From assembly GCF_011075055.1 (NCBI RefSeq), contig NC_058150.1:5332001-5396000 (forward strand): a stretch of DNA of 64,000 nt. Direction: 5' to 3'. Below are positions 24,786 to 29,244 of the stretch, piece after piece (positions within the stretch are counted from its first letter, which is position 1; every line of letters starts with the position of its first letter). The notes under the pieces were generated by a model. It was not told the origin of the DNA, made no database searches, and was given only the letters and a program-made list of their open reading frames with translations. The translations under genes were made by a program, and so were the position numbers. This DNA comes from Mangifera indica. Lineage: Eukaryota; Streptophyta; Magnoliopsida; Sapindales; Anacardiaceae.

Positions 24786-25339
24786 GGATTGATCTTAAGC
24801 AAGATTTTTTATGCATAACAAGAATATTTTGTTAGAATTTGCAAATTTGAACTTCAAAAATTCAAGTAAAACAATTATTTTACCCATACGACACAACCAA
24901 GAGGTTTACATCATTTCCATAAATTTGACAAGAAAGAGTTTGATATTATAATAAGGGAAATTTTAAAAAATGGCCAAAATGCCCTCCCATTAAGCAAAAA
25001 TACCCAAGATCACTATTTTCAAGCCAAAATGCCCAAAATCACTGTTCCAAAAAAAAAATGCCTATGCCTTTTTTTAATACCAAAACTACCCTTTCCCTTA
25101 TATTTATATAACTCTCCCACTTACTATAGGGTTTTAATGTAATTTTAGATAAATATGAGGGGTTTTTGGATATTTTACATTATAAAGGCATTTTGATATT
25201 TATTTATTTATTTCAAACTTTTTCTAAAATACCAAAATTACCCTTCCCTTCATTTATATAACTCCCCTCACTCATTATAGGGTTAAAATAATTTTAGATA
25301 AATATGAGGGGTTTTTGGATATTTTACATTGTAAAGGCA

Positions 25340-26640
25340 TTTTAATTTTTCAACTTTTAGAATTCGAATTTCAGTTCCGTTTTTTGGAATTTCACCGTTT
25401 TACGATATATCGATTCGTATTTTTCAGATTTCTGAAGGATTTTCCGTTTGTTGTCATTATAGGGTTTTTCAACTTTTACAATTCGAATTTCAGTTCCGTT
25501 TTTTCGGATTTCATCGTTTTACGAGATATCGACTCATATTTTTCAGATTTCCGAAGAATTTTTCGTTTGTTGCCATTCTAGGGTTTTTCAACTTTTAGAA
25601 TTCGAATTTCAGTTTCGTTTTTTCCGATTTCACCGTTTTACGAGATATCGACTCGTATTTTTCAGATTTCTGAAGGATTTTTCGATTGTTGCCATTCTAG
25701 GGTTTTTCAACTTTTAGAATTCGAATTTTAGTTCAGTTTTTTCGAATTTCACTGTTTGACGAGATATGGACTCATATTTTTCAGATTTCCGAAGGATTTT
25801 TCGTTTGTTGCCATTCTAGGGTTTTTCAACTTTTAGAATTCGAATTTCAGTTTCATTTTTTCGGATTTCACCGTTTTACGAGATATCGACTCGTATTTTT
25901 CAGATTTCTGAAGGATTTTTCGATTGTTGCCATTCTAGGGTTTTTCAATTTTTAGAATTAGAATTTCAGTTCCGTTTTTTCGAATTTCACCGATCGACGA
26001 GATATCGACTCGTATTTTCAGATTTCTGAAGGATTTTTCGATTGTTGCCATTCTAGGGTTTTTCAACTTTTAGAATTTGAATTTTAGTTCCGTTTTTTCG
26101 GATTTCACCGTTTTACAAGATATCGACTCGTATTTTTCAGATTTCTGAAGAATTTTTCGATTGTTTCCATTCTAAGGTTTTTCAACTTTTAGAATTGGAA
26201 TTTCAGTTCCGTTTTTTCAGATTTCACCGTTTTACGAGATATCGACTCGTATTTTTCAGATTTCTGAAGAATTTTTCGATTGTTTCCATTCTAGGGTTTT
26301 TCAACTTTTAGAATTGGAATTTCAGTTCCGTTTTTTCAGATTTCACCGTTTTACGAGATATCGACTCGTATTTTTTAGATTTTTGAAGAATTTTTCGATT
26401 GTTTCCATTCTAGGGTTTTTCAACTTTTAGAATTCAAATTTCAGTTCCGTTTTTTCGAATTTCACCGTTTTACGATATATCGACGCGTATTTTTCAGATT
26501 TCTGAAGGATTTTTCGATTGTTGCCATTCTAGGGTTTTTCAACTTTTACAATTCGAATTTCAATTTTATTTTTTTGAATTTCATCATTTTACGAGATATG
26601 GACTTGTATTTTCCAGATTTTCGAAGGATTGTTGGATTTG
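25340..26640 (+). repeat. Left arm: about 10 to 11 tandem 119-bp units
   Basis: The marker gggtttttcaactttta recurs at 25462, 25581, 25700, 25819, 25938, 26056, 26175, 26294, 26413 and 26532, a period of 118-119 bp. Units differ by only a few bases. Short frames across it are by-products of the repeat. Confidence 0.95.
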
Positions 26641-26673
26641 GTGTTAATTTATTTCATTATTACTATATTTTCT

Positions 26674-26865
26674 CTAATTTGTTTCAAGTGTGTAAATGTC
26701 CGAAAGTGTCCTCTCAAATAGTCGTAGCTGATCTGGGGTCAATGTAGCAGTAATCCGAGATAATGCGGCACGCTGTGCACGACATATCGCCTCTGCCCGG
26801 AAGTGTCTGGTCTCGTCAGGGATTCGCAGCTCGCTGTCAACCCGTCTTCTTTTGCGAGAAATATC
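26674..26865 (-). pseudogene. Exon-like fragment in the spacer of the Mutator-like element
   Basis: On the minus strand, a pyrimidine tract and acceptor ctcag at 26866-26870 are followed by 63 codons (RKRRRVDSELRIPDETRHF ... TPDQLRLFERTLSDIY) to a stop. Codon content is GC-richer than the surrounding arrays. It looks like a captured last exon of a host gene or of the ancestral element. I do not recognise the protein. Confidence 0.4.
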
Positions 26866-26947
26866 CTGAGACAATGTAAAAAATTCGTTAGACATGAGTA
26901 AAAACAAATATGTAAACAAATGTATACGTGGAAAAAACATAAAAATA

Positions 26948-27920
26948 TGAAAAATCCTAGAATGGGAACATTCAAAAAATCCTTCGGAAATCTGAAAAAT
27001 ACGAGTCTATATCACGTAAAACGATGAAATTCGAAAAAACGGAATTGAAATTCGAATTCTAAAAGTTGAAAAATCCTAGAACGGGAACAATCGAAAATCC
27101 TTCGGAAATCTTAAAAATACGAGTCCATATCTCGTAAAACGATGAAATCCGAAAAAACGGAATTGAAATTCGAATTCTAAAAGTTGAAAAATCCTAGAAC
27201 GGGAACAATCGAAAATCCTTCGGAAATCTTAAAAATACGAGTCCATATCTCGTAAAACGATGAAATACGAAAAAACGGAATTGAAATTCGAATTCTAAAA
27301 GTTGAAAAACCCTAGAATGGAAACAATAAAAAAATCCTTCGGAAATCTGAAAAATACGAGTCCATATCGCGTAAAACGATGAAATCCGAAAAACGGAATT
27401 GAAATTCGAATTCTAAAAGTTGAAAAACCCTAGAATGGGAACAATCGAAAAATCCTTCGAAAATCTTAAAAATACGAGTCCATATCTCGTAAAACGATGA
27501 AATCCGAAAAAACGGAATTGAAATTCGAATTCTAAAAATAGAAAAACCCTAGAATGGAAACAATCGAAAAATCCTTCGGAAATCTGAAAAATACGAGTCC
27601 ATATCTCGTAAAACGATAAAATTCGAAAAAACGGAATTAAAATTCGAATTCTAAAAGTTGAAAAACCCTAGAATGGAAACAATCAAAAAATTCTTCGGAA
27701 ATCTGAAAAATACGAGTCCATATCTCGTAAAACGATGAAATCCGAAAAAACGGAATTGAAATTCGAATTCTAAAAGTTGAAAAATCCTAGAATGGGAACA
27801 ATCAAAAAATCCTTCGGAAATCTTAAAAATACGAGTCCATATCGCGTAAAACGATGAAATTCGAAAAAACGGAATTGAAATTCGAATTCTAAAAGTTGAA
27901 AAACCCTAGAACAGAAAAAA
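26948..27920 (-). repeat. Right arm: about 9 inverted units of the same repeat
   Basis: The reverse complement of the left-arm unit recurs at about 26948, 27066, 27184, 27301, 27421, 27539, 27659, 27778 and 27897, a period of 118-120 bp. With the left arm it would form a hairpin with a stem of nearly 1 kb around a 300-base loop. Confidence 0.95.
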
Positions 27921-28052
27921 CGGATATAAAATTCGAAAAGTACACAATCAAAACCCTAGATAAGAAAAATCTCAATTTACCCCCTCATGAAAACTGAAAA
28001 TCTAAAGGTCCACTGAAAATCTAAGGAATTTCCCCAGCTTCCCAATATTTTA

Positions 28053-28990
28053 AAAAAGCTACTTTTCCCCCCCAAAAACAGCCAATCTTGGCTGCACGTG
28101 GACTGGACGATTTTGACGTGGGAAACACTGTTCCCACGTCGGACTGCCGATCTCTTCGGCAGTCATTTTCGGCCAAATTTTGGTCGTTTCAGCCTCCGAT
28201 TTTCACATAAATCAAATCTACACCTTGTCTAACACAAAACCCCTCAATCAATTTAACAAAAACAACCAAGAATCAAAACATTTTAAGCATTATTCAAAGC
28301 GTAAACCCTAAAATTTCAAACCGAAAAATCTCAATCAAATCTCAATAATATGAGCAATAATTTGATCCAAACAAGATTAAGGGAGATATACTAACCTTCT
28401 TTGCCATTTGTGGGTGCCGGAAATCAAGAAAATTGACGGAAATCGACGGAAATCGGATCGCCCGTGGGATGAACGTGGGTACGTGAAATTTGAGAGAAAT
28501 TTTAGGGTAATTTCGTAATATTAACGTGGGAAATAGCAATTTTTTCTGTGTAATATATATGGACATTTTCGTAATTTTGCAAAACTCGCGTTGACGTGAT
28601 AAATTTCAAAAAAACCCCACGTGGGATAAGAATTTCCCACGTCACCCCAATTGTTTCAAAAAGCTATGTTTCCCCCCCGAAATTAGGCTGAACGTGGGCT
28701 TATTGATTTTAACGTGGGAAACACTGTTCCCACGTCGGACTGCCGATCTCTTCTGCAGTCTTTTCCGGCCAAATTTTGGTCGTTTTAGCCACCGATTTTC
28801 ACATAAATCGAATCTACACGTTGTATAACACAAAACCCCTCAATTAATTCAACAAAAACAACCAAGAATCAAAACATTTTAAGCATTGTTCAAACCGTAA
28901 ACCCTAAAATTTCAAACCTAAAAATCTCAATCAAATCTCAATAATATGAGCAATAACTTGATCCAAACAAGATTACGGGAGATGTGATAA
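28053..28990. repeat. Duplicated segment in the right part of the element, period about 600 bp
   Basis: The sequence from aaaaagctacttttcccccc (28053) is repeated from about 28654 with small changes. Shared parts include gacgtgggaaacactgttcc, cggccaaattttggtcgtt and caaccaagaatcaaaacatt. The duplicated stretch is about 340 bp. Confidence 0.9.
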
Positions 28991-29244
28991 CATTATTTTC
29001 CATTTTCGGTTGCCGGAAAGCAAGCAAATCGGCGAAAATGACGTTCCCCGTGGGATTCCCGTGGGATGCGTTAAAAATTCGAATTTTCTTTGAATTGCAC
29101 AGTGAAAAATTGCTGTGTTTATATATGGGGGCATTTTCGTCATTTCACAAAACCTGGGTATTTTTGCTTAAACCTTAATTTTTTGGGCAATTTCGCTTAG
29201 ACCCCTTTAATTTTGCCTAATTTTTAAAATTTCCCTTATAATAA

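Follow-up and report, generated by a model that had tools for sequence, protein, structure and literature searches.

The locus described here raises the question of why two tandem arrays of one 119-bp unit should face each other inside a single transposable element. It lies in a 64-kb window of the Mangifera indica genome (the window being the whole stretch of DNA that was analysed), where a Mutator-like element (MULE) of 4,281 bp occupies positions 24955-29235. We consider it probable that this element, which is non-autonomous, derives by internal deletion from a two-gene, VANC/Kaonashi-like MULE family of mango; the same estimate covers, jointly, a new reading of the arrays as 5' noncoding repeats of two convergent genes, retained after the genes were deleted. 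The evidence consists of the observed anatomy of the element, its family, the gene content of its kin, splice motifs, target-site duplications (TSDs) and near-identical copies.

The element is bordered by a perfect 9-bp TSD (TTATAATAA at 24946..24954 and again at 29236..29244, 9/9 bases equal); the preliminary description had already reported such a duplication, and its limits of 24946-29244 are those of the element plus both TSD copies. The terminal inverted repeats (TIRs) are short, being perfect over 15 bp (24955..24969 on the plus strand and 29221..29235 on the minus strand) and weaker out to about 81 bp, where identity is 67%. Together with the MULE transposase found in kin, these ends support the earlier assignment to the MULEs, although the window copy itself has no transposase. 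The left end block of 391 bp (24955..25345, plus strand) contains no CpG, and a duplication of 149 bp at 25076-25350 lies mostly within it. The left array follows (25346..26638, plus strand; 119 bp x 10.9, Tandem Repeats Finder score 2096), and 301 bp separates it from the right array, which is inverted to it (26940..27911, minus strand; 119 bp x 8.2, score 1676). These values agree with the roughly 10 units facing roughly 9 inverted units around some 300 bp that had been described. The right part of the element, about 1.3 kb long, carries a 420-bp block twice (inner copy 28026..28448, outer copy 28630..29043, both on the minus strand; 86% identity). It is a putative promoter/first-exon block, with an altered start region in the outer copy. 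Both duplications, and a coding exon in the spacer, had escaped the preliminary description. Perfect dyads occur in both right blocks, GACGTGGGAA-N6-TTCCCACGTC at 28115-28140 and a version one base shorter on each side at 28712-28735. The motif CCCACG/CGTGGG occurs 12 times in 27912-29235 versus twice in the remaining 59.7 kb of the window.

Using the left end as a query against the 391.4-Mb mango assembly, at least 40 matches were found, the window included (387-391 of 391 bases, 96-100% identity); the copy number is a lower bound, as 40 of 1,002 first-look candidates were scored. Nineteen of the 39 other copies were examined whole, in 10-kb pieces. They are the lowest-ranked of the 40 scored left ends, and the whole-copy statistics thus lean toward copies about 96-97% identical to the window at the left end. 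Two copies were completed with further pieces (L032 with L050, L002 with L051). All 19 copies share a common frame of left end, units, variable interior and right blocks, and 17 of the 19 have arrays on both sides, the exceptions being L038, without a right array, and L032, whose piece is incomplete and whose right array lies in L050. In the 20 copies that include the window, unit numbers range from 3 to 29 on the left and from 0 to 23 on the right; the zero of L032 reflects its incomplete piece, since five diverged right units were found once it was completed, and none were found in L038. The TSDs are perfect in 19 of the 21 elements in which both ends were read (the 19 copies, the window and L002) and match at 8/9 bases in L035 and L039. 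An orphan sequence or an assembly artefact was rejected because the 119-bp unit recurs at many places; arrays elsewhere have other unit numbers, making an artefact of assembly unlikely. The preliminary description had proposed a genome search for other copies and had allowed for such an artefact; the search returned the copies, and the artefact was not borne out.

The gene content of these copies indicates what the window copy has lost. At the position equivalent to 26638/26639, five copies hold 2.0-3.1 kb with a transposase. Rightward frames of 577-579 amino acids with MULE and DBD_Tnp_Mut domains were identified in L036 and L039, and L036 also has, farther along, a SWIM zinc-finger exon; the Pfam MULE domain (PF10551) was matched in L036 (3e-20), L039 (1e-20), L032 (2e-21) and L034 (2e-10), and SWIM in L036 and L032. 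A leftward gene in L032 and L035 encodes DUF1985 (PF09331; 1.4e-23 and 1.1e-22, respectively) and the Ulp1 protease domain Peptidase_C48 (1.6e-13 and 7.5e-21). In a tblastn census of the 20 elements, the transposase exon (520-577 of 577 residues) was present in L032, L034, L036, L039 and L040; the whole DUF1985 piece in L032 and L035, with fragments in seven elements including the window (52 residues); and the whole Ulp1 piece in L032, L035 and L043, with fragments in six. None of the three pieces was detected in L038, L041, L042, L047 and L048. Different copies have therefore lost different parts of one two-gene parent. The largest copy examined, L032 (11,764 bp, perfect TSD), contains both genes in convergent orientation, with the transposase frame-shifted. 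The autonomous partner suggested in the preliminary description was thus found in part: kin supply a transposase gene and a DUF1985-Ulp1 gene, yet the two are not both intact in any copy examined. In the window, the first deletion junction is at 26638..26639, shared with L035 and L043, where the transposase gene is absent, and the second is at 26699..26700, where the body of the DUF1985-Ulp1 gene is absent (3.0 kb in L035, 3.7 kb in L032).

The left array can be placed relative to the transposase, and the right array relative to the second gene. In all five transposase-bearing copies, the left units stop 210-260 bp before the transposase match and have the same orientation. On the other side, exon 2 of the DUF1985-Ulp1 gene begins on the minus strand of the window: 26868-26700 reads DISRKRRRVDSELRIP...LFERT, after which the frame runs through ten residues unrelated to the gene and stops. 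This truncated exon (26677..26868, minus strand) is 84% identical to the annotated mango protein P0001 over 45 amino acids, and the same exon runs on into the DUF1985 domain in L032 and L035. The reading frame begins with M-A-K-K at the end of exon 1 (28396..28407, minus strand). Judging from the splice motifs and the annotated kin, the right array probably lies inside intron 1 (26869..28395, minus strand), with the donor GTTAGT from 28395 and an acceptor CAG ending at 26869. Among the 20 copies, the exon-1 edge motif was found in 13, the exon-2 edge motif in 11 and both in seven; in all seven the two motifs flank the right array. In L036 the acceptor is mutated. Eight related mango proteins were compared (P0001-P0005 and P0007-P0009): the joined residues MAKK-DISRK are present in P0001 and P0007 and MVKK-EISRK in P0002, P0003 has another N-terminus, and the remaining four begin further on. 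A comparison of the spacer open reading frame (ORF) with Pfam returned no family. A Pack-MULE with a captured host exon was rejected, because the spacer exon belongs to the family itself, coding for the N-terminus of its DUF1985-Ulp1 protein. One annotated mango protein, P0019, has DUF1985 and MULE transposase domains both listed; perhaps it is a gene model spanning both genes of such an element.

The facing of the arrays follows from these positions. The large members of the family carry a MuDR-type transposase gene reading rightwards and a DUF1985-Ulp1 protease gene reading leftwards; the left array is a 5' noncoding repeat that precedes the transposase gene, and the right array a first-intron repeat of the DUF1985-Ulp1 gene. 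Relative to the gene it belongs with, each array keeps a single orientation, and because the genes are convergent, the arrays face each other. As the anatomy of the copies shows, internal deletion brings them together and generates foldback shapes of the kind present in L041 (9 + 10 units, no spacer), L042 (4 + 2 units, 1 bp) and L048 (29 + 23 units, 197 bp). The window copy no longer has the transposase or the greater part of the DUF1985-Ulp1 gene but keeps the ends, the first exon and the arrays, and it was presumably mobilised by a transposase supplied in trans.

Recent movement of such copies is indicated by five near-identical relatives. In the left half, L002-L006 share about 1,747 bp with the window at 99.66-99.83% identity, with 1-4 substitutions and one gap, and the nine bases to their left differ from those of the window and among themselves; in L003-L006 the comparison covers the left side. 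L002, 4.5 kb long, is a complete element and has a perfect TSD of its own. The window and L002 (with L051) are 99.7% identical in the left half and 98.2% in the right half, which indicates that the two halves have different histories, perhaps owing to recombination or template switching.

Other structural variants were observed among the copies. Six copies, namely L038 and the five that bear a transposase, differ in their left arm, in which a second, roughly 394-bp tandem repeat of left-end sequence is followed by only 3-4 units of 119 bp. L033 has two right ends (L033:4193 and L033:5711), and its TSD matches the outer one only. L034 and L040, located on C9 and on the small contig C30, have a common TSD (CCCATTTTA) and structure; C30 is an unplaced contig, and the two may be one insertion present twice in the assembly.

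The layout is comparable with that of known elements, as far as the accessible portions of the published reports extend. In Arabidopsis, VANDAL21 and VANDAL6 have a MuDR-type transposase together with a DUF1985 gene; the transposase is preceded by tandem repeats of one orientation and variable number, which also occur within introns of the DUF1985 gene (PMC5735166). Hosaka et al. (PMC5735166) report that VANC targets tandem repeats that lie upstream of VANA21 or within VANC21 and VANB21 introns; VANC carries DUF1985 and DUF287, and its anti-silencing was shown in Arabidopsis. Silencing by RNA-directed DNA methylation hits the same noncoding regions as the VANC targets (Sasaki et al., PMC10398659). 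The mango family likewise has a DUF1985 gene (in L032 and L035, and as its exon 2 in the window) and intronic and upstream tandem repeats. It differs from VANDAL in having Ulp1, not DUF287, as the second domain found, in its short TIRs, in lacking the motif YAGTATTAY, and in using one CpG-rich 119-bp unit at both genes; anti-silencing in mango is proposed by analogy.

The Kaonashi (KI) MULEs of the literature have a Ulp1 domain reversed to the transposase (PMC2528002), as in L032, and a VANC gene with Ulp1 (PMC13317346); Ulp1-carrying VANC genes are termed KIU genes in a review (PMC13317346). KI elements, however, are described as non-TIR, and paired arrays are not mentioned in the available text of these reports (PMC2528002, PMC13317346). 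Since a short TIR is present, the mango element was not filed as Kaonashi. The ULP1-bearing MULEs of melon, rice and grapevine combine Ulp1 with a MULE transposase in both orientations and include TIR and non-TIR elements, with a 9-bp TSD in grapevine (PMC2528002). The combination of Ulp1 and TIRs in mango is thus not new, as Ulp1 genes occur in TIR-MULEs of melon and grapevine (PMC2528002). Unlike the mango family, these MULEs are described without mention of arrays, and the word 'tandem' is absent from the text available (PMC2528002). Tandem-TIR MULEs of tomato and other species resemble the mango family in the repeated end sequence of amplified, mostly non-autonomous elements, but whole TIRs are duplicated there instead of a 119-bp internal unit (PMC3310237). 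Given the VANDAL21 repeats (PMC5735166) and the foldback MULEs FARE and Tm1 (PMC3169594), as far as they are documented in the text available, the preliminary statement that no named family has this layout was too strong. No description of the mango family was found among the matches listed, for which titles and the starts of abstracts were covered and subscription papers lay mostly outside; this is weak evidence of absence.

Because the repeats are placed as in VANDAL and the family has a DUF1985-Ulp1 gene, we infer that the arrays may be targets of the DUF1985-Ulp1 protein. In analogy with VANC on VANDAL repeats, they may be dense, same-orientation cis targets of a family DUF1985 protein that counters DNA methylation, a function to which we assign somewhat less than an even chance. 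Retained arrays would then let gene-less copies profit from the anti-silencing. A wider and more doubtful proposal is that of an independent VANC-like system in mango, in which the CpG-rich 119-bp unit with its dyad, present at both gene starts, would be the target of the DUF1985-Ulp1 protein, while gene-less, array-lengthening copies would spread as parasites or decoys of that protein and act as potential sources of siRNA (small interfering RNA) hairpins, so that offence and defence would work on one repeat.

The units themselves were also compared. In the window, 10 left and 8 right units were aligned, a partial 11th left unit (104 bp) being excluded; mean divergence is 7.8% among left units, 4.8% among right units and 9.9% between the arms. 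CpG density is 56-66/kb in the window arrays versus 15/kb in the rest of the window, and the CpG observed/expected ratio is 2.3-2.7 versus 0.58; the ratio is 2.0-3.2 in the arrays of seven other copies (of the 19 whole copies). Across the family, 276 units of at least 110 bp from 20 elements were analysed, with shorter units dropped, including the right units of L043. Among left units, the CGs at columns 51, 58, 66 and 71 are retained in 84-88%, and five other CGs in 26-75%. Among right units, the same four columns are retained in 86, 84, 26 and 78%, and the others in 58-81%. The kept CG columns surround a dyad, TACGAG-N7-CTCGTA, both six-base arms of which are exact in 119 of the 276 units (spacing not enforced); the dyad, which falls in the best-conserved stretch of the unit, is a candidate core. 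For 185 of 276 units the nearest relative lies in the corresponding arm of a different element, for 76 in the same array and for 15 in an opposite arm elsewhere, and the arrays are therefore mostly inherited.

Several observations weigh against the derivation from a two-gene, VANC/Kaonashi-like family or against the function proposed for its arrays. No copy among the 20 elements has both genes intact; L036 and L039 keep 28-35 Ulp1 residues with no DUF1985 match, and L035 and L043 have no transposase match. DUF287 gave no match at E 0.1 in seven pieces of the gene among ten ORFs, the gene having been scanned in pieces only. The element lacks the VANC21 motif YAGTATTAY, though motifs are reported to differ between VANC families (PMC5735166). 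The recognisable short TIRs contrast with the non-TIR designation of Kaonashi and VANDAL in the sections available (PMC2528002, PMC13317346). No genomic position was found for P0001, P0002 or P0007, which leaves any arrays in their introns hypothetical. In L038 the right array is missing but the TSD is perfect, and left arrays have 3-29 units in the 15 copies without transposase versus 3-4 in the five with it (Mann-Whitney p 0.003; subfamily is confounded with gene content). Transition rates in the 276 units are 0.096 at CG, 0.192 at CHG and 0.067 at CHH sites versus 0.017 and 0.021 at T or A; the excess at C/G sites indicates past methylation of the arrays, and C-to-T decay at CG and CHG sites means that the presumed targets of anti-silencing were once methylated. 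The CpG richness is unusual but could be the legacy of one CpG-rich founder unit: elsewhere in the window, at least eight CGs are present in 25 of 994 tiles of 119 bp. The contrast in CG retention is limited to left units; it is weak in right units, where column 66 is mostly lost, and the units are related and hence not independent observations.

A rival explanation is neutral: slippage or unequal exchange would have multiplied a CpG-rich founder unit, and the resulting arrays would be passengers of transposition. Tandem repeats readily expand, unit numbers vary widely among the copies, and the kinship of units within arms agrees with mostly inherited arrays. Chance growth does not readily account for one unit at both gene starts with a fixed orientation per gene in 17 of 19 copies, nor for the longer left arrays of copies without transposase, although for this latter difference the confounding with subfamily applies and L034 and L040 are maybe one insertion. 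We regard neutral arrays as possible but doubtful. The arrays may instead harm the family: a read-through hairpin of gene-less copies would give siRNAs that silence it in trans, like the proposed maize Mu killer, an inverted duplication with a proposed hairpin RNA of about 4 kb (PMC3440606, in its accessible text). The preliminary description was right that a transcript could fold as a kilobase-scale hairpin. For the minus-strand transcript of 25346-27911, the predicted folding energy is -1374 kcal/mol, and 904 of the 1,073 pairs link the two arrays (plus strand: -1392 kcal/mol, 898 of 1,077 pairs); a control with the right array flipped to direct orientation gives -572 kcal/mol. Near-perfect foldbacks exist in L041, L042 and L048, and the raised decay at CG and CHG sites suggests earlier methylation. 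Nevertheless, gene-bearing copies have their arrays in the same intronic and upstream positions, at least 2.5 kb apart, and the window subfamily multiplied recently, the opposite of efficient self-silencing. Nor are the facing arms homogenised, the mean opposite-arm distance being 0.12 within elements and 0.121 between elements; gene conversion between facing arrays is unsupported by the same distances. Mu killer shares the inverted arrangement capable of a kilobase-scale hairpin but is a duplication of transposase and TIR, as opposed to the noncoding arrays only of mango (PMC3440606). A natural silencer thus appears unlikely to us.

The overall look and the predicted fold would also suit a strict foldback element, in which the arrays are part of very long composite TIRs and the transposase would bind to their repeats. 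MULEs of the foldback type with repetitive ends are known: FARE of Arabidopsis and Tm1 of Meloidogyne have facing, internally repetitive arms and a MULE transposase, with a 9-bp TSD in Tm1 (PMC3169594). According to the portions of that report available, however, their repeats form the terminal repeats, whereas those of mango are subterminal, at gene starts, with unrelated array flanks. The arrays begin 391 bp from the left end and about 1.3 kb from the right end, and this outer sequence is mostly unrelated, the arms matching outside the arrays only over the terminal 81-137 bp or so at 66-67% identity. The consensus sequences of the two arms differ at four columns, and L038 has its perfect TSD without a right array, though loss of the array after insertion is possible. 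A single very long TIR was rejected, as the match beyond the arrays is confined to the short terminal stretch. We therefore find composite TIRs quite improbable.

Other features of the window were recorded. An ORF with an AP2 domain (ERF-like) is located at 30298-31077, about 1.1 kb to the right of the element, and the insertion may lie in its upstream region. Plus-strand ORF groups at 1627-4542, 10478-11999 and 18178-21274 resemble tandem class I/II aminotransferase genes (Pfam on one ORF). A tandem duplication of 186 bp occupies 53203-53593 in a very AT-rich stretch (G+C fraction 0.21).

A foldback shape, these results show, does not require long terminal repeats: convergent genes that share one leader repeat can give rise to it. 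The mango family offers a way to test whether the DUF1985 proteins of other plants target leader repeats, and what Ulp1 adds. In this tree crop, it could also show whether array-only derivatives exploit or damp anti-silencing.

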